A stretch of 40,141 nt of DNA from assembly GCA_016192135.1 (NCBI GenBank), contig JACPUR010000027.1, positions 1 through 40,141 of the forward strand. The letters run 5' to 3'. The translations under genes and the position numbers were made by a program. Shown here one piece after another: positions 1,952 to 36,609 of this stretch (positions within the stretch are counted from its first letter, which is position 1; each line of letters begins with the position of its first letter). This stretch comes from Candidatus Tectomicrobia bacterium. Its GTDB lineage: Bacteria; UBA8248. The notes below the pieces were generated by a model, which had not been told where the DNA came from, did no database searches, and saw only the letters and a program-made list of their open reading frames with translations.

Positions 1952-2584
1952 ATGGTTTCCCCTCCCCCCCTCCGGCGCCTCCAGCACGTCGGCGTCCGGG
2001 TGCACGATCTCGACGAGGCCATGGCCTTCTACCGGGACGTGCTGGGCCTGCGGGTCTCGGATCGCTACGACCCGGGCGACAACCCCCACGGCCCCTGGGG
2101 CATCTGCTTCATGCGCTGCGGGGACGAGCACCACGAGGTCTCCCTCGTCGCCTTCCCGAAGGAGGCGCAGACGGATCTCCCCGCCTCGGGGTTCCGGGCG
2201 CCCCTCGCGGCGGGGCTCCATCACCTGGCCTTCGAGGCGGCCTCCCGCGAGGAGTTCGACCGCTGGCTCTCTCACCTGCGCGGGCGCGGCATCGAGTTCG
2301 CCTACGGGCCCGTCGTCCACAGCCCCGCCCATCCCGAGGGGGACGGCACCCTGGGCGAGAACCGCGCCGTCTACTTCCACGACCCCTCGGGGAACATCAT
2401 CGAGATTTTCTGCGACATGGCCCGCATGGACCCGGCCTCGAACCGGGTGGGCGAGGCCTGGTTCCGGGAGCGGCTCGCCCGCGACGGGCATTCTCCCTCG
2501 GCCGCCGATCCGCCCTCCGCCTGGCGGCCGGGGGTTTCGAGCATGGCCGGCGCCCGCGGCGGGCGAAGCAAGAACATCTCCTGA
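1952..2584 (+). CDS. VOC-family metalloenzyme (glyoxalase / extradiol dioxygenase-like)
   Basis: Vicinal oxygen chelate superfamily protein, 210 aa. The frame stays open upstream to about 1736, but the ATG at 1952 is chosen because AAGGAG lies at 1941-1946 and the VOC motif LQHVGVRVHDLDEAMAFYRD begins just after it. Expected metal ligands are present: His12, His91 (in GLHHLAFEA) and Glu151 (in SGNIIEIF). Two beta-alpha-beta-beta-beta modules account for residues 8-155. The last 55 residues are low in complexity and look like a tail. Family members include glyoxalases, extradiol dioxygenases and fosfomycin-resistance enzymes, so the substrate is open. The 22-nt gap to the hydroxyacid dehydrogenase suggests co-transcription and a catabolic role (inference). 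Confidence 0.85.
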   Translation: MVSPPPLRRLQHVGVRVHDLDEAMAFYRDVLGLRVSDRYDPGDNPHGPWGICFMRCGDEHHEVSLVAFPKEAQTDLPASGFRAPLAAGLHHLAFEAASREEFDRWLSHLRGRGIEFAYGPVVHSPAHPEGDGTLGENRAVYFHDPSGNIIEIFCDMARMDPASNRVGEAWFRERLARDGHSPSAADPPSAWRPGVSSMAGARGGRSKNIS

Positions 2585-2606
2585 CATCCACCGGAAAGGA
2601 AGCCGA

Positions 2607-3560
2607 ATGCCCCACAAGATCCTGACCGTCGATCCGCGCTTCAAGAGGCCCGACCGCCAGGCCCAGATCAAGGAGTTCCTCCCGGCCGGCTTCGAGCTGG
2701 CCGTGCCGCCGGACTTCGAGCGGGCCACCCTCCTGCGCGAGGCCCGGGACGCCGTCGCCATCATCTCCGCCATGCAGCCCATCGACGCCGAGCTGATGGC
2801 CGCCTCGCCCGGCCTGCGGGTGGTGGGGAAGGCGGGGACGGGGGTGGACAACATCGACATCGCCGCCGCCACGGCCCGGAAAATCCCGGTGGCGAACTCA
2901 CCCGGCGCTCTGCGTTCGGTGCCCGTGGCCGAGCACGCCATGACTCTCATGCTCATGCTGGCCCGGCGGCCCTGGCTGTGGCGGACCCAGGAGCGCCGCC
3001 TCCACGTCCAGATGGAGGGTTCCACGGCCGGCATCGTGGGGCTGGGGAACATCGGGCGGGGCATCGCCCGGCGCTGCGCCGGGTTCGGGATGCGCATCCT
3101 CGCCCACACGCGCACCCGGGGGAAGTTCCGCCCGGAGGGCTTCGAGGTGACCGAGACGGCGAGCCTGGAGGAGCTCCTCCCCCAGGTGGACTTCCTCGTG
3201 CTCTCGCTTCCCCTCGCGCCGGAGAGCCGGGGGCTCATCTCCCGGGAGGAACTCGCCCGCATGAAGCCCACGGCGTACCTGGTGAACGTCTCGCGCGGCC
3301 CCCACGTCGTGACGGATGACCTCGTGGACGCCCTGCGCGGGGGGCGCATCGCGGGAGCGGGGCTGGACGTGACCGACCCCGAGCCCCTCCCGGAGGGCCA
3401 TCCCCTCTTCGAGATGCCGAACGTGGTGCTCTCCCCCCACATCGCCGCCCACACCGGCAGCGTGCAGCGGGCGAGCTACCGCCTCCTCTTCGACAGCATC
3501 CGGCGGGCGGTGGACGGCGAGCGGGTGGAATCTTTGGCCAACCCGCAGATATATGCGTGA
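2607..3560 (+). CDS. D-isomer-specific 2-hydroxyacid dehydrogenase
   Basis: NAD(P)-dependent oxidoreductase interconverting 2-keto acids and D-2-hydroxy acids; 317 aa, the usual family length. The ATG at 2607 follows GAAAGGA (2594-2600). The Rossmann motif GIVGLGNIGRG starts at about residue 142. The catalytic Arg (NVSRGP), Glu (DPEPLP) and His (SPHIAAH) are all present in the C-terminal half. Residues 70-110 (VVGKAGTGVDNID, NSPGALRSVPVAEHAM) match the D-3-phosphoglycerate dehydrogenase branch. There is no ACT domain, so it is unlikely to be the feedback-regulated SerA. It sits 22 nt after the VOC gene; a 28-bp palindrome separates it from the PrpF-like gene. Exact substrate is not predictable. 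Confidence 0.9.
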   Translation: MPHKILTVDPRFKRPDRQAQIKEFLPAGFELAVPPDFERATLLREARDAVAIISAMQPIDAELMAASPGLRVVGKAGTGVDNIDIAAATARKIPVANSPGALRSVPVAEHAMTLMLMLARRPWLWRTQERRLHVQMEGSTAGIVGLGNIGRGIARRCAGFGMRILAHTRTRGKFRPEGFEVTETASLEELLPQVDFLVLSLPLAPESRGLISREELARMKPTAYLVNVSRGPHVVTDDLVDALRGGRIAGAGLDVTDPEPLPEGHPLFEMPNVVLSPHIAAHTGSVQRASYRLLFDSIRRAVDGERVESLANPQIYA

Positions 3561-3587
3561 CCGGATGAGTTACGGAGCGGGCGTTTC

Positions 3588-3615
3588 GTAGGGGCGGTTC
3601 GCGAACCGCCCCTAC
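3588..3615. repeat. 28-bp palindrome, arm GGTT, centre CGCG
   Basis: Perfect inverted repeat: GTAGGGGC, then GGTT-CGCG-AACC, then GCCCCTAC. It lies between the dehydrogenase and the PrpF-like gene. The same core recurs at 24977, 30880 and 33743. A degenerate copy follows at 3638-3662. Confidence 0.9.
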
Positions 3616-20633: not shown

Positions 20634-21278
20634 TCACGGTCTCTTGTCCGGGCGCGCGGGCAAGAAGGCGCCTCCGGAGCTGGCCGGCGCGGGGACGAAC
20701 CTCATCTCCCCCGCCCGGACCTTCTGCTTCAGGTCCTTGTGGCAGGCGTCGCACCGAGGCTGGGCGAACGCCGGGACGATGAAGACCTTCTCCCGCCTCC
20801 CGCCCGTCTTGTGGCCGCTGTGGCACTGGACGCAGGACGCCTTGAGCTCGGCGTGGTCGCTGATCCCGTGGAAGGCCTCGGCCGGGAGCTTGAGGATGCG
20901 CTCATCCGGGTGGCACTTGAGGCAGTCCTTGTCCTGGATGGGGTGGAACACCCGGGCGGGCACCTCGTAGTCGCCGATGACGAACCGCCAGGTGTCGCCG
21001 GCGGCGAGGAGGGTGGTGCGGATCATGCCGGCGACACCATCCTCCCCGTGGCAGGAGATGCAGCGTGCCTTGCCGGAGGAGAGGTGCCAGCCGCCCAGGC
21101 TTCGGATCGCCCGCTTCTCCCGCCGCCCGTCGTCCAGGTAGTCCTGGTGGTCCTGAAGATGACAGGAAGTGCAGAAGGGGTCGTAGGTTTCCGCGGCCCG
21201 GATGCCGTAGAGCCCGGCGAGGCCGGCAGCGGGGAGGAGCAGGACTAGAAGCAGGGCGACACCCATCCACCGGCGCAA
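20634..21278 (-). CDS. Membrane-anchored pentaheme cytochrome c
   Basis: 214 aa electron-transfer protein. One N-terminal membrane anchor (MGVALLLVLLLPAAGLAGLYG) is followed by a periplasmic domain with five CxxCH heme sites: CTSCH, CISCH, CLKCH, CVQCH and CDACH. Extra His residues (HLQDH, FHGISDH, HSGHK) may be distal ligands. It resembles NapC/NirT/NrfH-type quinol-oxidising cytochromes, but no nitrate or nitrite reductase is near. Start TTG at 21278 is preferred because GAGAGGAG lies 6 nt upstream; ATG at 21266 is the alternative. A candidate promoter lies at 21311-21340. The Pro/Ala-rich C-terminus is probably disordered. Confidence 0.85.
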   Translation of the reverse strand: MRRWMGVALLLVLLLPAAGLAGLYGIRAAETYDPFCTSCHLQDHQDYLDDGRREKRAIRSLGGWHLSSGKARCISCHGEDGVAGMIRTTLLAAGDTWRFVIGDYEVPARVFHPIQDKDCLKCHPDERILKLPAEAFHGISDHAELKASCVQCHSGHKTGGRREKVFIVPAFAQPRCDACHKDLKQKVRAGEMRFVPAPASSGGAFLPARPDKRP

Positions 21279-21310
21279 CGCGGACTCCTCTCTCCGTCTT
21301 GTCCGCGCCC

Positions 21311-21340
21311 ATGCTAGCACCCGCCCGGATCGCCCATCAA
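21311..21340 (-). promoter_or_regulatory. Candidate promoter of the cytochrome c gene
   Basis: On the minus strand: TTGATG (21335-21340), an 18-nt spacer, then TAGCAT (21311-21316), with TGC directly before it forming an extended -10. It lies about 33 nt upstream of the TTG start. Confidence 0.4.
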
Positions 21341-21373
21341 CGGAGGCCTCTCCTTCCGCCGCCGGGAGGGTTT

Positions 21374-21382
21374 TGGTAGGAT
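21374..21382 (+). promoter_or_regulatory. Candidate extended -10 for the yajD-aroA operon
   Basis: TGGTAGGAT: an extended -10 (TGn) before TAGGAT, 19 nt before the yajD start. No clear -35 box. GGAGG at 21391-21395 is the ribosome site. Confidence 0.35.
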
Positions 21383-21401
21383 CGCGGGCAGGAGGCCCCG
21401 G

Positions 21402-21749
21402 ATGGCGAGGACGCGCTTCGGACACAAGAGAAAGGCCCAGCCCCCCAAGCCCCCGGCCGCCCCCGCCGGGAGCGCCAAGGAGGCGGCCCTGCGCCTGAAG
21501 GCCCAGGCGGCCATCGGCCGGAACGCGGCGGACTACCGCCGGCGCTCCCTCGAGATCCACGGGTGGATCTGCGCCAAGTGCGCGCGTGAGTTCGACGAGA
21601 CGAACCTGCACCTGCTCACCGTCCATCACCGGGACGGCAACCCGCGCAACAATCCCCTGGATGGCAGCAACTGGGAGAACCTCTGCGCCTACTGTCACGA
21701 CGACGAGCATTCGCGCGACCGGCTGGGCAGGTACTTGAGCGGCGAATGA
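21402..21749 (+). CDS. yajD: YajD-like HNH nuclease-family protein
   Basis: 115 aa. The HNH/zinc core matches E. coli YajD: CAKCAREF (CxxC), NLHLLTVHHRDGNPRNNPLDGSNWENLC and AYCHDDEHS. These include the HH-N-H catalytic arrangement and the second zinc CxxC. The first 45 residues are a basic Lys/Arg/Pro/Ala-rich extension not found in the short YajD form, possibly nucleic-acid binding. ATG at 21402 follows GGAGG by 6 nt. It heads a compact run with aroA 28 nt downstream. Family activity in cells is poorly known; a DNA-directed nuclease is the family inference. Confidence 0.88.
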   Translation: MARTRFGHKRKAQPPKPPAAPAGSAKEAALRLKAQAAIGRNAADYRRRSLEIHGWICAKCAREFDETNLHLLTVHHRDGNPRNNPLDGSNWENLCAYCHDDEHSRDRLGRYLSGE

Positions 21750-21777
21750 GCGGCGCTCAGAAGGGGCATCTTCTCCC

Positions 21778-23058
21778 ATGATCCTCCGCGTCCGGCCCTC
21801 CTCCGCGAAGGGGCGCAGCGGCGTCCCGGGGTCCAAGTCCCACTCCATCCGGGCGGTGGCCTTCGCGTCGCTCGCCTCGGGGAAGAGCCGCATCCGCAAC
21901 CCGCTCGAATCGGAGGACAGCGCCTCGGCCGTCTCCGTCTACCGGGCCCTGGGGGCGGAGATCGCGCTCGGGCCGGGCGATTGGCGCGTGCAGGGCTTCG
22001 GCGGAGCGCCCGAGGCGCCGCGCTGCCTGGTGGACGTGGGGAACTCCGGCACGAGCTGCCGGCTCGGCCTGGGCACGGCGGCCCTCCTCGCCGAGGGCCA
22101 GGCCCGCTTCGACGGGGACGCCCAGACCCGCAAGCGCCCGATGGGCCCCCTCCTCCAGGCCCTCTCGAACCTGGGCGCCCGCGCCCGCTCCGAGAACGGC
22201 GACGGCCGCCTCCCGGCCGTCGTCGGGGGGCGCTGGAAGGGGGGCCGCACCCAGGTGGAGGGCACCACGAGCCAGTTCACCTCGAGCCTCCTCGTGAACG
22301 CGCCCTTCGGGGAGGGCGACACCGAGATCGAGCCGATCAGGCTGAACGAGCGCCCCTACGTGGACATGACCTGCTGGTGGCTGGACAAGCTGGGGCTCCG
22401 CTACGAGCGCGAGGGCTATGAGCGCTTCCGGGTGCCGGGCGGGCAGTCCCTCGGGGGCTTCGACCGGGAGGTGCCCGCCGATTTCAGCTCGGCCGCCTTC
22501 CTGGTGGCCGCCGGGGCGCTCCCGGGCGGGGACGTCGTCCTCGAGGGCCTCGACATGGACGACCCCCAGGGCGATAAGGCCGTGCTGGACATGGCGAGGG
22601 AGATGGGCGCCGAGGTGCGCGCCGAAGGCAGGGCCATCCGGGTGCGCGGCCGGGCCCTGCGCGGCGGGGAGTTCGACCTGAACGCCACCCCCGACCTCCT
22701 CCCGGTCATGGCGGTGCTGGGGGCCTTCGCCGAAGGGGAGACGCGCCTGTTGAACGTGCCCCAGGCCCGCATCAAGGAGACGGACCGCATCGCCGCCATG
22801 CGCGAGGTGGTCGAGAGCCTGGGAGGCGGGGCGGAGGAGCTGCCCGACGGCCTCATCGTCCGGGGCGGGGGCCTGAAGGGAGGCCGCGCGCGCGGCTTCG
22901 GCGACCACCGCGTCGTCATGGCCGCCGCCGTGGCGGGCCTGGCCGCCCCCAATGGGGTGGAGGTGGACACGGCCGAGGCGATGCGGATCACGTTCCCGGA
23001 TTTCTGCGAGCGGATGCGCGCCCTGGGCGCCATCATGGAAACGTCGGAGGAAGGATAG
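21778..23058 (+). CDS. aroA: 3-phosphoshikimate 1-carboxyvinyltransferase (EPSP synthase)
   Basis: 426 aa, full length. Shikimate pathway step joining shikimate-3-phosphate and PEP. N-terminal PGSKSHSIRA is the substrate Lys/Ser motif; VDVGNSGTSCRL carries the Gly-Thr pair equivalent to E. coli Gly96-Thr97; the position of Pro101 is Leu. DGDAQTRKRPMGPLL, the catalytic Asp in TPDLLPVMAVLGAFAEG, KETDRIAAM and GDHRVVMAAAV follow in order. The conserved Lys near the C-terminus of E. coli (Lys411) appears replaced (EAMRITFPDF). The sequence looks closer to archaeal-type and divergent bacterial AroA than to E. coli. No other aro gene is visible nearby. FmdB-like gene follows after 5 nt. Confidence 0.93.
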   Translation: MILRVRPSSAKGRSGVPGSKSHSIRAVAFASLASGKSRIRNPLESEDSASAVSVYRALGAEIALGPGDWRVQGFGGAPEAPRCLVDVGNSGTSCRLGLGTAALLAEGQARFDGDAQTRKRPMGPLLQALSNLGARARSENGDGRLPAVVGGRWKGGRTQVEGTTSQFTSSLLVNAPFGEGDTEIEPIRLNERPYVDMTCWWLDKLGLRYEREGYERFRVPGGQSLGGFDREVPADFSSAAFLVAAGALPGGDVVLEGLDMDDPQGDKAVLDMAREMGAEVRAEGRAIRVRGRALRGGEFDLNATPDLLPVMAVLGAFAEGETRLLNVPQARIKETDRIAAMREVVESLGGGAEELPDGLIVRGGGLKGGRARGFGDHRVVMAAAVAGLAAPNGVEVDTAEAMRITFPDFCERMRALGAIMETSEEG

Positions 23059-32068: not shown

Positions 32069-32806
32069 TCAGCCCCCGAACAGCCGGGCCGCGGTGCCCC
32101 CCAGGATATTCGCCTCGTCCTCCTTCGGGAGCCCCAGCCCCCGCACGTGGGCGGCGACGGCCCCGGGCTCCTGCTCGGGCCACCAGGAGCCCATCACCAT
32201 CCGGTCCGCCCCGGCCTCCTCCACGGCGCGGCGAATCCAGCTCGAGGGCGCCACGCCCACCTCGATGACCAGGTTCGGGCACTCCCTGAGCGCCGCCAGG
32301 TAGTCCGGCCAGAAGGCCCAGGTCCAGCACCGGCTCATGAGGACGGGCCGGTCCGGCAGGGCGTCCGCCACGATGCAGTCGCTGTAGACGGCGCCTCCCA
32401 CGGTGGGTAGGTGGCCCTCGTGCTCGATGGAGAAGAGCATCCCGCGCGCCCGGCACCTCTCCGCGATGGGGACGTAGAAGCGCTCGATGAGGCCCGTCCC
32501 CGGAGTGAAGCCCCAGGAGGTGAAGATGCGGACGCCGCGCAGGCCCAGGTCCGCGATGCGCTCCGTCTCCTCGGGCCCGTCGTAGTGGTTGAGGGTCCCC
32601 CAGCCGCACAGCCGGTCCGGGGCGGCCTTGCAGGCCGAGGCCACGCGCTCGTTCGCCTCCCGCCACCTGAAATGCTGAACCGCCTCGAAGGGCATGAGGG
32701 CCGCGCGGTCCACCCCCGCCTTGTCCATCGCCCTGAGGATTTCCTCCGCCTCCCTGCCCTGCGGGAGGTGCGGGTGGCGCAGGCAGACCGCCGTGTCGAA
32801 GATCAC
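32069..32806 (-). CDS. Amidohydrolase-related protein lacking metal ligands
   Basis: 245 aa TIM-barrel protein of the amidohydrolase_2 type, collinear with its upstream neighbour: AEEILRAMDKAGVDRAALMPF vs AEDVLRSMDEAGVDRSILIDL. Yet the N-terminal His-x-His is absent (IFDTAVCL where the partner has IDHHAHIN), and the late Asp is Trp (MGSWWPEQ where the partner has YGSDNPTS). So it probably cannot bind the usual metals. Start GTG at 32806 overlaps the stop of the active paralogue by 4 nt (GTGA), with GAGGGGAAGG upstream. It could be a structural or regulatory partner subunit, or have a changed chemistry. Confidence 0.82.
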   Translation of the reverse strand: MIFDTAVCLRHPHLPQGREAEEILRAMDKAGVDRAALMPFEAVQHFRWREANERVASACKAAPDRLCGWGTLNHYDGPEETERIADLGLRGVRIFTSWGFTPGTGLIERFYVPIAERCRARGMLFSIEHEGHLPTVGGAVYSDCIVADALPDRPVLMSRCWTWAFWPDYLAALRECPNLVIEVGVAPSSWIRRAVEEAGADRMVMGSWWPEQEPGAVAAHVRGLGLPKEDEANILGGTAARLFGG

Positions 32807-33561
32807 GCCTTCCCCTCCAGGCCGAGCAGGCGGAGGATGTTGCCGCCCAGGATTTGGTCCTTCTCCCCGCGGCCGATCTCCAGGGACTCGACCAGGGCCT
32901 TGCAGGCGATGGGATGGCTCGTCGGGTTGTCCGAGCCGTAGAGGATCCTTCCCGCCCCCACCGCCGCGAGGGCGTTGCGCAGCGGCCCCCCGTGGTTCAT
33001 CGAGGTGTCGATCCAGATGTTCGGGTATTTCTTCGCCACGTAGCAGGCGTCGGCGAACATGGCGTGGCCGATGTGGCCCAGGATGATGTCCACGTCCGGG
33101 AAGTCGCGCGCCAGGTCCGCGAAGAGGATGGGCCCGCTGTGGGGGGCGTGGCCCGCGTGGATGAAGATGGGCACCTGGTGCTCCCGGCACTTCTCCATGA
33201 CCGGGTAGACGTACTCCCGGCTGTTCGCCGGGTGGCAGTCCGAGACGGGGTGGAGCTTGAGCCCGAGGTGGCCCATCCCGGTCAGCGCCTCGTCCACGTG
33301 GCGCAGGCACGCCTCGACCCCGAGCATGGGCGGGTGGAGGTAGGCGAAGCACATGAAGCGGTCGGGGCGCCTCGCCGCGATCTCGGCCGCCTCGGCGTTC
33401 CCCGCGCGGTAGTCCCCGCCGTAGAGGGCGGAGAGGTCGATGAGGATGCTCCGGTCCACCCCGGCCTCGTCCATGCTGCGGAGCACGTCCTCGGCGCCGG
33501 TCTTGTGGCGGTGGCCGTAGTTCAGGTTGATGTGGGCATGGTGGTCGATGACGGGCGGCAT
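32803..33561 (-). CDS. Amidohydrolase_2-family metal hydrolase
   Basis: 252 aa metal-dependent hydrolase or decarboxylase of the PF04909 type. Ligands: IDHHAHINL (HxH) at residues 5-13, His in LKLHPVSD, IFIHAGHAP, His in LGHIGHAM and Asp in YGSDNPTSHP. The family includes ACMS decarboxylase-like and lactone hydrolases acting on aromatic or dicarboxylate intermediates. Its stop overlaps the start of the degenerate paralogue, so both are made from one message. On the minus strand 338 nt divergent from the DUF6282-like hydrolase; a TATAGT (33623-33628, minus) could be its -10. Confidence 0.88.
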   Translation of the reverse strand: MPPVIDHHAHINLNYGHRHKTGAEDVLRSMDEAGVDRSILIDLSALYGGDYRAGNAEAAEIAARRPDRFMCFAYLHPPMLGVEACLRHVDEALTGMGHLGLKLHPVSDCHPANSREYVYPVMEKCREHQVPIFIHAGHAPHSGPILFADLARDFPDVDIILGHIGHAMFADACYVAKKYPNIWIDTSMNHGGPLRNALAAVGAGRILYGSDNPTSHPIACKALVESLEIGRGEKDQILGGNILRLLGLEGKA

Positions 33562-33899
33562 GCGGTCTCCCGGGCGCGCCTCGCGCCGTGGATGAGGACC
33601 AGTCTGACAAGCGGGCGGGAATACTATAGCGGCTGGAGGGGTTGGGGGGGAAGGAAGGCGCGATTATGTTGGCGCCCACCGGAGCAGGCAGGGAGACCTG
33701 CCCCCACGCCCCTCGGGCCGATTGAGGACGCCGGGGAGTATTGTAGGGGCGGTTCGCGAACCGCCCCTACGGGAAAGACCATCCCGGAAGATGGCCATTT
33801 CTCTCTTTGGGCCTCCGCGATATGGATTCGCCCGCCGTTGCCCCGCGCCCTCCCTTGGGCTAGCCTGTGGCGTCCCGTCGCCATCCGTGGAGAGACTTC
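33562..33899. other. 338-nt divergent intergenic region
   Basis: Separates the minus-strand amidohydrolases from the plus-strand DUF6282-like gene. It holds a GTAGGGGC palindrome (33743-33770), an imperfect CAGGCAGG/CCTGCC hairpin near 33689, a minus-strand TATAGT at 33623-33628 and a weak plus-strand TTGCCC-17 nt-TAGCCT at 33838-33866. No gene is seen. Confidence 0.6.
33743..33770. repeat. 28-bp palindrome, arm GGTT, centre CGCG
   Basis: Perfect copy, identical to those at 3588 and 30880. Confidence 0.9.
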
Positions 33900-34928
33900 A
33901 TGCGCGAGGACCTGCGGCTGCTCCAGGGCGCCATCGACACCCACATCCACGCCTCCCCCAGCCTCTTCCCCCGGCTGGTGGATAACATCGAGTGCGCCCA
34001 GGGGGCGGCCGCGGCGGGGATGCGGGCGGTGACCTTCAAGTTCCACCACGGGGACACCTCGGGGCGGGCGCCCCTCGTCCGCCGGGCGGCGGGGGACGCC
34101 ATCGAGGTGTACGGCGGGGTGACGTTGAACCAGGCCGTGGGAGGCCTCAACCCCTTCGCCGTGGACACCGCCATCCGCCTCGGCGCGAAGATGGTGTGGA
34201 TGCCCACCCTGAGCGCGCTGAACCACCTGAAGAAGGTGGGCTCCCCCCACCTCCCCGGCATGAAGCAGACGGGAGGCGCCGCGCTCGGCGAGAAGGGCAT
34301 CACCATCTTCACCGACGAGAAGCGCCGCAAGGTGCGGCCCGAGGTGCGCACCATCTGCAAGCTCGTGGCCCAAGCCGGCATCTGCCTCAGCACCGGCCAC
34401 CTGGACGCGGGCGAGGTGCGGGCCCTGATAGAAACCGCGCGCGGGGAAGGAGTGGAGCGCATCATCGTCCAGCACCCCGAGTACATCACCGACGCCACCA
34501 TCGAGGAGCAGGTCGAGTTCGCGCGGATGGGGGCGCTCATCGAGCACTTGGCCATCTTCTGCTTCACCCATTGGGGGGGCTACCCGACCCGAAAGGGCGC
34601 GCCCCCCATCTCGGCGCGCGAGCAGGCGAAGATGGTCCGCGCCGTGGGGGCCGAGCACACCATCCTCTCGACCGACCTGGGGCAGCTCCACAACCCGCCC
34701 CCCTGGGAGGGGATGCGGGTCTTCATCCAGCTCATGCTCGACCACGGCATCACCGCGGACGAGATCGGCATCATGGTGAAGCGCAACCCCGCCTACGCGC
34801 TGGGGCTTCCCGGCTCCTCCCGGCCGAAGGCCGCCCCCAGGCTGAGGAGCGTCCCCAAGCCGAAGGGCCTCCCCAGGCGCCTCGCCCGGCCGGCGCGGAA
34901 GGCCGCCCAGGCGGACGGGCGCAACTAA
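33900..34928 (+). CDS. DUF6282-like amidohydrolase-superfamily protein
   Basis: 342 aa. Metal-hydrolase-like barrel: AIDTHIHASPS near the N-terminus gives HxH, FKFHHGDTSG and STGHLDAGEV give further His, QHPEYITDATIEEQ another, and ILSTDLGQLHNPP the late Asp. This pattern fits the DUF6282 family of unknown activity. ATG at 33900 is chosen because GGAGAGA precedes it; the frame is open to 33867. The last ~40 residues are Lys/Arg/Pro-rich (RPKAAPRLRSVPKPKG...) and unusual for the family, perhaps a flexible basic tail. The cyclase gene starts 10 nt downstream. Confidence 0.8.
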   Translation: MREDLRLLQGAIDTHIHASPSLFPRLVDNIECAQGAAAAGMRAVTFKFHHGDTSGRAPLVRRAAGDAIEVYGGVTLNQAVGGLNPFAVDTAIRLGAKMVWMPTLSALNHLKKVGSPHLPGMKQTGGAALGEKGITIFTDEKRRKVRPEVRTICKLVAQAGICLSTGHLDAGEVRALIETARGEGVERIIVQHPEYITDATIEEQVEFARMGALIEHLAIFCFTHWGGYPTRKGAPPISAREQAKMVRAVGAEHTILSTDLGQLHNPPPWEGMRVFIQLMLDHGITADEIGIMVKRNPAYALGLPGSSRPKAAPRLRSVPKPKGLPRRLARPARKAAQADGRN

Positions 34929-34938
34929 GAGGGGCTCC

Positions 34939-36609
34939 ATGTCCTGGCTGAGCGCCAGCCTCCAGCGCAAGCTCCTGCTCCTGGTCCTCGTGCTCCTGGG
35001 GCTCGGGTTCGGCGTCTCCGCCCTCATCACCATCGAGACGGAGCGCCGCCTCCTGCTCGCGCAGACGAGCGAGCGCGCCTCCATCATCGCCTCGACCATC
35101 CACAAGAGCATCCGCAGCAGCATGCTGGGGGGCCGGCCCGACATCGCGCGCTCCCTCCTCGACGAGCTCAAGCGCACCGACGGGGTGAAGGCCCTCCAGG
35201 TCTTCCGCAACGACGGCACCGAGGCCTTCACCGACCTCCGCACGCTGGAGAAGGTGAGCGAGAAGCAGGCCCCCCTGGATCCCCGCGCGGTCCGCAGCAT
35301 CCGCCGCCAGGCCGCCCAGATGCAGAAGATGGACTCCATGGGCCAGGACGCCCACTTCAAGGATGCGCTCGCCTCCGCCCGGGAGACTTCCTGGATGGAG
35401 AGCACCCGCGAGCCGGGCGGCGGGACGGCCCGCATCCTCACCTTCCTCAAGCCCCTGGAGAACGAGGAGAACTGCCAGGTCTGCCACGAGGCCGACTCCA
35501 AGGTGCGGGGCATGGTGCTGGTCTCGACCGACGTGAGCGAGATCATCGCCAAGGTGGCCATCCTGCGGAACCGCCAGATCGCCATCGCCCTCGCCACTCT
35601 CCTCGCGGTGGCCTTCGCCCTCCTGTTCTTCCTGCGGCGCACCGTCGTCCGGCCCCTCCAGGACCTCGAGGCCTGCGCCGGCCTGATCGGGCAGGGCCAG
35701 TTCGACGTCTGCGAGCCCCACACCGGTCCGGACGAGATCGGCCGCCTGGGCACGAGCTTCCGGAAGATGGCCGCCTCTCTCAGCCGGGCCTACAGCGACC
35801 TCCAGGGCAAGAACGCCGAACTCGAGCGCACCCTCGGGGAGCTCCAGGAGAGCCGCCAGAAGGTGCAGCTCCTCGAGGCGGTGAAGGACCAGCTCTCCAA
35901 GTTCGTCCCCGAGTCCGTCCAGCGCCTGCTGGAAGAGAACCCCGAGGCCGACTCCCTCGCCCAGCAGGAGAAGGACATCACCATCGTCTTCCTCGACCTC
36001 GAGGGCTACACCCGGATGAGCGAGATGTTCCCGCAGCCGGTGGTGAACGAGATCCTGCAGAAGTATTTTTCCGCCTACCTGGAGATCGTCGGGGAGTACA
36101 AGGGGGAGATCAACGAGACGGCCGGGGACGGCCTCATGCTCATCTTCCAGGACGACGATCCCATCGCGCACGCCGCCAACGCCATCGAGGCGTCCATCAA
36201 GATCCGGGCCAAGACCCTCCAGATCAACGCCGCGAGGCCCAAGGGCCACCCGGAGGTCTACGCCAACATCGGGATCAACTCGGGGGTGTGCTCGGTGGGG
36301 GCCAACAAGTTCGAGGCGGCGGGCGGCCACTCCCGCTGGACCTTCACCGCGCTCGGGCCCGTCACCAACCACTCGGCCCGCATCGGCAAGGTGGCCACCC
36401 GGGGCCGCATCATGATCGGCCCCGAGACGGCCCGCCGCGTCCAGGACCGCTACGCCCTCGTGGACATGGGCCACCATAGCCTCAAGAACGTCCCCGAGCC
36501 CATGCTCATCTGTCAGGTCATCCCGACCGGAGTGATCTATCCCGTCGGGAGCTTCGACCCGGTGGACGCGGTGGACGGCACCAAGGCGCGGGCCGCGGCG
36601 ACGGCGTGA
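34939..36609 (+). CDS. Periplasmic heme-sensor class III nucleotide cyclase
   Basis: 556 aa membrane receptor. TM1 at about 11-31; periplasmic sensor 32-210 with one c-type heme motif CQVCH (179-183) in a NEENCQVCHEADSKVRGM context; TM2 at about 214-234; HAMP to ~290; coiled coil 285-335 (KNAELERTLGELQESRQKVQ); cyclase domain ~345-520. Metal-binding Asp353 (FLDLEGYTR) and Asp397 (ETAGDGLMLIF), and transition-state Asn477 and Arg481 (TNHSARIG), are present. The purine-selecting position before AGD is Glu393, as in guanylate cyclases, rather than the Lys of adenylate cyclases. So GTP use is possible (inference). ATG 34939 follows GAGGGG. Probably senses redox state, NO, CO or O2 through the heme. 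Confidence 0.88.
   Translation: MSWLSASLQRKLLLLVLVLLGLGFGVSALITIETERRLLLAQTSERASIIASTIHKSIRSSMLGGRPDIARSLLDELKRTDGVKALQVFRNDGTEAFTDLRTLEKVSEKQAPLDPRAVRSIRRQAAQMQKMDSMGQDAHFKDALASARETSWMESTREPGGGTARILTFLKPLENEENCQVCHEADSKVRGMVLVSTDVSEIIAKVAILRNRQIAIALATLLAVAFALLFFLRRTVVRPLQDLEACAGLIGQGQFDVCEPHTGPDEIGRLGTSFRKMAASLSRAYSDLQGKNAELERTLGELQESRQKVQLLEAVKDQLSKFVPESVQRLLEENPEADSLAQQEKDITIVFLDLEGYTRMSEMFPQPVVNEILQKYFSAYLEIVGEYKGEINETAGDGLMLIFQDDDPIAHAANAIEASIKIRAKTLQINAARPKGHPEVYANIGINSGVCSVGANKFEAAGGHSRWTFTALGPVTNHSARIGKVATRGRIMIGPETARRVQDRYALVDMGHHSLKNVPEPMLICQVIPTGVIYPVGSFDPVDAVDGTKARAAATA

Follow-up and report, generated by a model that had tools for sequence, protein, structure and literature searches.

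A predicted periplasmic c-heme receptor with a class III cyclase domain bearing a guanylate-type Glu in Candidatus Tectomicrobia

Bacterial periplasmic heme sensors of one Cache family were recently named sCache_heme (PF21563/PF11845) in a 2026 preprint, with GSU0935, GSU0582 and a protein of P. azotoformans among the members (PMC12889525). In reduced GSU0582 and GSU0935, Met60 binds the heme; oxidation releases it, and NO or CO can take its place (PMC8396549). The signalling sCache_heme of P. azotoformans showed the kinetics of an NO sensor and formed no stable oxy-complex (PMC12889525). The Fig. 2B legend of the same preprint lists Guanylate_cyc (PF00211) among the commonest output domains of the family, and the sCache_heme–cyclase architecture is therefore not new; our literature search found no biochemically studied sCache_heme cyclase. 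On the enzyme side, few bacterial guanylyl cyclases have been proven and the upstream signals of bacterial cGMP are poorly known. In one published comparison, Glu at the first base-selecting position marks guanylyl cyclases, whereas several residues occur at the second (C, S, T, H, A or G), with Thr found in both adenylyl and guanylyl cyclases (PMC4215837). Cya2 is a proven guanylyl cyclase that the E488K substitution converts to an adenylyl cyclase (PMC5995499). E497K/C566D likewise turns CaRhGC into an adenylyl cyclase (PMC5967339), and K101E/D157T raised the guanylyl cyclase activity of Ma1120 (PMC4215837). Such residue rules are imperfect, since XC_0250 is a guanylyl cyclase with Ala at a substrate-specifying position (PMC3770947).

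Here, we analyzed a window of 40,141 nucleotides (contig JACPUR010000027.1, assembly GCA_016192135.1) from an uncultured soil/groundwater bacterium, Candidatus Tectomicrobia. One of its genes encodes a receptor ordered as transmembrane helix, periplasmic c-heme Cache domain, transmembrane helix, HAMP, cyclase-transducer helix and class III cyclase (Table 1). Hydropathy peaked at residues 12-30 and 214-232, and HAMP (231-282) and Guanylate_cyc (341-516) matched above their curated cut-offs, as did PF21563, a chemoreceptor sensor family (103-198, 39.3 bits against a cut-off of 27). The motif FLDLEGYT, beginning at residue 351, holds D353, NETAGDG (392-398) holds E393 and D397, and the transducer helix carries FVPxSV. 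An earlier note, made from the sequence alone, had described this open reading frame as a cyclase receptor with CQVCH between two membrane helices, with both metal Asp, Asn477 and Arg481 in its cyclase domain, and with Glu393 at the base-selecting position. All of this was borne out: its coordinates and residue numbers were exact, the two hydropathy helices flank the motif, PF00211 matched with all four catalytic residues present, and Glu393 aligned with Glu488 of Cya2.

Table 1 Features of the receptor gene, with positions in the window.
Feature	Position	Strand	Basis
Predicted c-heme sensor/class III nucleotidyl cyclase receptor, 556 aa	34939..36609	+	ORF, translation, Pfam, homologue alignment
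GAGGGG-containing spacer from DUF6282 stop to receptor ATG, possible ribosome-binding site	34929..34938	+	read by eye
First transmembrane helix, about residues 11-31	34969..35031	+	hydropathy; helix 2-60 in predicted model
Periplasmic sCache_heme domain, about residues 32-211; PF21563 core 35245-35532	35032..35571	+	profile and fold matches
Met62, invariant, predicted distal heme ligand, aligned with GSU0935 Met60	35122..35124	+	alignment; Met60 ligand role from PMC8396549
CQVCH heme-c attachment motif, residues 179-183; His183 predicted proximal ligand	35473..35487	+	residue check, homologue alignment
Second transmembrane helix, about residues 212-232	35572..35634	+	hydropathy
HAMP domain, residues 231-282	35629..35784	+	Pfam
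Coiled coil end and cyclase-transducing element, about residues 308-335, KFVPESVQRLLEENP	35860..35943	+	aligned with matching part of Cya2 fusion 6fht; conserved among homologues
Class III cyclase homology domain (PF00211), residues 341-516	35959..36486	+	Pfam
Asp353, first metal ligand	35995..35997	+	residue check, alignments
Glu393, base-selecting position (Lys in adenylyl cyclases; Glu488 in Cya2)	36115..36117	+	alignments
Asp397, second metal ligand	36127..36129	+	residue check, homologue alignment
Thr470, second base-selecting position	36346..36348	+	alignments
Asn477 and Arg481, transition-state residues	36367..36381	+	residue check, homologue alignment

By sequence, the sensor is a member of the GSU0935/GSU0582 family (PF21563; PDB 3b42/3b47), that is, of sCache_heme. 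Its profile matched 3b47 (GSU0582) at E 1.9e-9 and 3b42 (GSU0935) at E 8.2e-9, and all 11 full-length or near-full-length homologues matched PF21563 at E<=0.01; PF11845 itself matched a single homologue, and that weakly. Predicted structures were of moderate confidence (pLDDT 69-71, under 50 around CxxCH), and Foldseek with the sensor model (pLDDT 69) placed the sCache domain of WalK on top (7dud/4ywz, E about 1e-6, TMt 0.73), with 3b42 at E 1.8e-6 and 3b47 also matched. C179, C182 and H183 were invariant in 11 of 11 homologues, at identities down to about 42%; this invariance and the match to 3b42/3b47 by both sequence and fold exclude a chance CxxCH. The receptor resembles the described sCache_heme signalling proteins in having a single periplasmic Cache domain, the CxxCH in the segment preceding the last strand, two transmembrane helices and a HAMP domain, whereas the characterised Geobacter members are MCPs. 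Its PF21563 domain is the only one in the genome, a Pfam scan of the receptor gave no H-NOX match, and heme-c maturation genes occur elsewhere in the genome (two Ccm-type matches on contig C38, one more on C41). Together, these data lend strong support to the coupling of a periplasmic c-heme sensor with a class III cyclase, heme being predicted to be attached at the CQVCH motif.

The alignment also offers a strong lead to the distal ligand: Met62 is probably the counterpart of GSU0935 Met60. It is invariant among the 11 homologues, within the motif ML(G/E)GRPDI. In the profile alignment, Met62 fell on residue 26 of the 3b42 chain and the CxxCH His on residue 110; since residue 110 is His144 of the literature, residue 26 is Met60. 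This N-terminal segment of the alignment scores only 6.1 bits, and the match is also backed by collinearity and by the invariance of Met62.

What such a heme would sense is best judged from its relatives. The earlier note had proposed periplasmic redox or gas as the input, and by analogy with the characterised relatives of the sensor either appears fitting. The heme might instead be purely a sensor of periplasmic redox state (or electron flux), with no physiological NO response, and we regard this as a serious contender that falls somewhat short of probable. Met60 is released in a redox-linked manner in the Geobacter relatives, whose midpoint potentials are -156 and -251 mV (PMC8396549). Moreover, a search of the genome for dissimilatory nitrite reductases turned up neither a convincing NirK nor a convincing NirS (TIGR02376 scored below its cut-off and PF02239 gave only a fragmentary match), which leaves no evident source of NO within the cell itself. 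Against a redox-only role, however, the Geobacter domains take up NO whether oxidised or reduced, and their reduced form also binds CO (PMC8396549), and the signalling sCache_heme of P. azotoformans acted as an NO sensor (PMC12889525).

We then turned to the catalytic domain, whose metal, transition-state and base-contact positions are all kept and do not vary in any homologue that covers them. E393 aligned gap-free with Glu488 of Cya2 (2w01), and 6fht, an E488K construct, shows Lys in that column; at the second selector position, where the receptor has Thr470, Cya2 has Gly and CyaC also has Thr. Comparison with relatives carrying NETAGDG, as the earlier note had suggested, placed these residues in a larger group. 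The genome holds 12 class III domains, and the selector residue could be read in 10 of them, the receptor's included (three Glu-Thr, three Lys, two Gln, one Arg and one Ser). A maximum-likelihood tree built from 28 domains gathered the 17 ETAGDG domains into one group (100/100) apart from Cya2, CyaC and CyaB, and every member carried the Glu-Thr pair, whatever its sensor. The N-termini in this group are mixed and include the heme sensor, an unrelated multi-membrane-pass type (L014, L016 and L017) and another membrane N-terminus (L018 and L020). Cya2 paired with another cyclase elsewhere in the midpoint-rooted tree. Given the small size of the tree and the uncertainty of its root and deep forks, this topology does no more than suggest that the Glu of the ETAGDG clade arose separately from that of Cya2.

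Other members of the clade lie close at hand. Two more Glu-Thr class III cyclases are encoded in the receptor's own genome (L038, G000:C1:192400-194600, and L006/L018, G000:C1 at about 356.2 kb), with CxxCH absent from the ORFs examined. In sister Tectomicrobia genomes, L014, L016 and L017 (and L015) are Glu-Thr cyclases with a multi-pass membrane N-terminus and HAMP.

The earlier note had gone on to propose that the heme sensor makes a cyclic nucleotide, possibly cGMP. The first part stands as above, and for the second cGMP rather than cAMP is our better guess: it is plausible since the guanylate-type Glu is real and clade-wide, but it is an expectation from the active site because Thr at the second selector position fits both adenylyl and guanylyl cyclases and no ETAGDG-clade enzyme with assayed activity turned up in the literature, where a search for the motif itself also found nothing. 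Alternatively, the same heme receptor could be an adenylyl cyclase or use both ATP and GTP, with Glu393 a lineage marker devoid of guanine selectivity, an option that is credible yet rather doubtful in our judgement. Thr occupies the second position in class IIIb adenylyl cyclases such as CyaC and in Lys-type cyclases of the same genome, the ETAGDG clade stands apart from Cya2, so that its Glu may work differently, and the residue rules break down for XC_0250. Yet Glu is unable to make the contacts of Lys to adenine, and K-to-E changes in CyaG and Rv1625c are reported, second-hand in PMC4215837, to have abolished adenylyl cyclase activity; the Glu is also invariant throughout the clade, even where the sensors differ widely.

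Two further explanations can be set aside more readily. The CxxCH might carry no heme and serve as structural thiols or a metal site, with the receptor sensing an organic ligand as other Cache domains do. The top fold match was indeed to the non-heme sCache of WalK type, and the motif also occurs in non-heme proteins such as an HNH-like ORF at 21318-21746. Nonetheless, family and motif position are shared with crystallised c-heme domains, both Cys, the His and the distal Met are all conserved, and the genome has heme-c maturation genes, which together make this explanation very improbable. A catalytically dead cyclase-like domain acting as a scaffold is more improbable still, given the invariance of the metal, transition-state and base-contact positions.

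Next, we surveyed the distribution of the receptor. It occurs in 5 of the 18 genomes of the small host phylum (G000, G001, G002, G010 and G014), and its nearest named relatives are in Candidatus Tectomicrobia MAGs (MGDP01000044.1, 83% protein identity). A contig search with the single receptor sequence returned nothing, and an alignment query returned ten loci. Near-full-length orthologues at 42-44% identity are encoded by MAGs that carry the label Rokuibacteriota/Methylomirabilota or Deltaproteobacteria; treekit assigns those of Deltaproteobacteria to Myxococcota. Across Tectomicrobia, Rokubacteria/Methylomirabilota and Deltaproteobacteria/Myxococcota, every full-length orthologue carries CxxCH and Met62. 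Plasmids gave matches to the catalytic half only, at most 27% identical among the matches listed, and viral contigs gave no relative of the receptor.

Gene neighborhoods were less constant. A DUF6282 gene (33867-34928, +) ends 10 bases upstream of the receptor, and an amidohydrolase gene (32803-33561, -) lies nearby. Two congeneric relatives, L023 and L024, retain both of these genes and L025 just the amidohydrolase, but no DUF6282 gene was found upstream of the receptor in L025 or L026, nor in the other phyla; its adjacency is thus probably incidental, and we set aside a functional link to the receptor. Downstream in Tectomicrobia, a sugar isomerase-like gene is common to the window, L024 and L025, and a beta-lactamase-fold gene to the window and L025; among the loci compared, no neighbor was common across phyla. 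The pentaheme cytochrome that the earlier note had pointed out is present in the window (20634-21899, -), a membrane-anchored protein with CTSCH, CISCH, CLKCH, CVQCH and CDACH and with NapC/NirT-like and cytochrome c7-like matches. We rejected the implied link to the receptor, as the two genes lie about 13 kb apart on opposite strands with no sign of linkage. The genome has 11 cNMP_binding matches over the cut-off, none adjoining the receptor. At L028, a locus from a rokubacterial MAG, the heme cyclase is preceded two genes upstream by an ion channel (2338-3603, +) that contains a cNMP-binding domain, and downstream lies a second cyclase (L028:6405-7298, -) whose INEFIGD motif has a Glu selector and which groups with Cya2 (94/94). 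This may be a local cyclic-nucleotide module, a single case that is not conserved.

The reading that we prefer, and towards which we lean modestly, is a homodimeric inner-membrane receptor whose c-heme and Met62 are switched by oxidation or NO and whose cyclase makes cGMP. The Ccm machinery would attach heme to C179 and C182, with His183 as the proximal ligand and Met62 as the distal ligand of the reduced heme. Oxidation of the heme, or binding of NO (possibly CO), would displace Met62; its loss would shift the Cache helices and, through the second transmembrane helix, HAMP and the coiled coil/transducer helix, alter the activity of the cyclase dimer. In this preferred reading the catalytic domain would convert GTP to cGMP, a substrate proposed from the presence of Glu393 in place of the adenine-selecting Lys and of Thr470 instead of Asp. 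The product may act on at least one of the cNMP-binding proteins of the genome.

As far as our literature search reached, the additions to knowledge are the Glu-Thr clade and the conservation of Met62. The family joins a sensor type that is known, with NO/redox chemistry measured in relatives, to a little-studied enzyme branch whose active site predicts GTP use, and knowing the substrate of any one member would help greatly in classifying the ETAGDG clade as a whole. Synechocystis Cya2 (2w01) has the class III fold, the membrane-receptor layout, the transducer helix before the catalytic domain and the Glu (E488) in common with the receptor, whereas its sensor is CHASE2, its second selector is Gly rather than Thr, and it does not group with the ETAGDG clade. 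The best PDB matches of the catalytic domain, CyaC (Spirulina, 1wc0) and CyaB (Pseudomonas, 3r5g), share Thr at the second position but are adenylyl cyclases with Lys at the base-selecting one. The class III domain of XC_0250 from Xanthomonas has been shown to produce cGMP and is paired with a cNMP-binding effector; unlike the receptor, XC_0250 has a TPR rather than a heme sensor, other selector residues and no Asn/Arg transition-state pair. Animal soluble guanylate cyclase has Glu at the same catalytic position. By analogy, it is a heme/NO-controlled producer of cGMP as the receptor would be, whereas its heme b sits in a cytosolic H-NOX domain, it is a heterodimer with Cys as second selector, and its sensor is unrelated. 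We tentatively suggest, as a possibility on the doubtful side, that the receptor is a bacterial transmembrane counterpart of this animal NO receptor, in which a covalent periplasmic heme c senses NO or redox and cGMP is made by a separate Glu-Thr clade common to several phyla. If so, bacteria would have built a heme-controlled cGMP receptor of their own.
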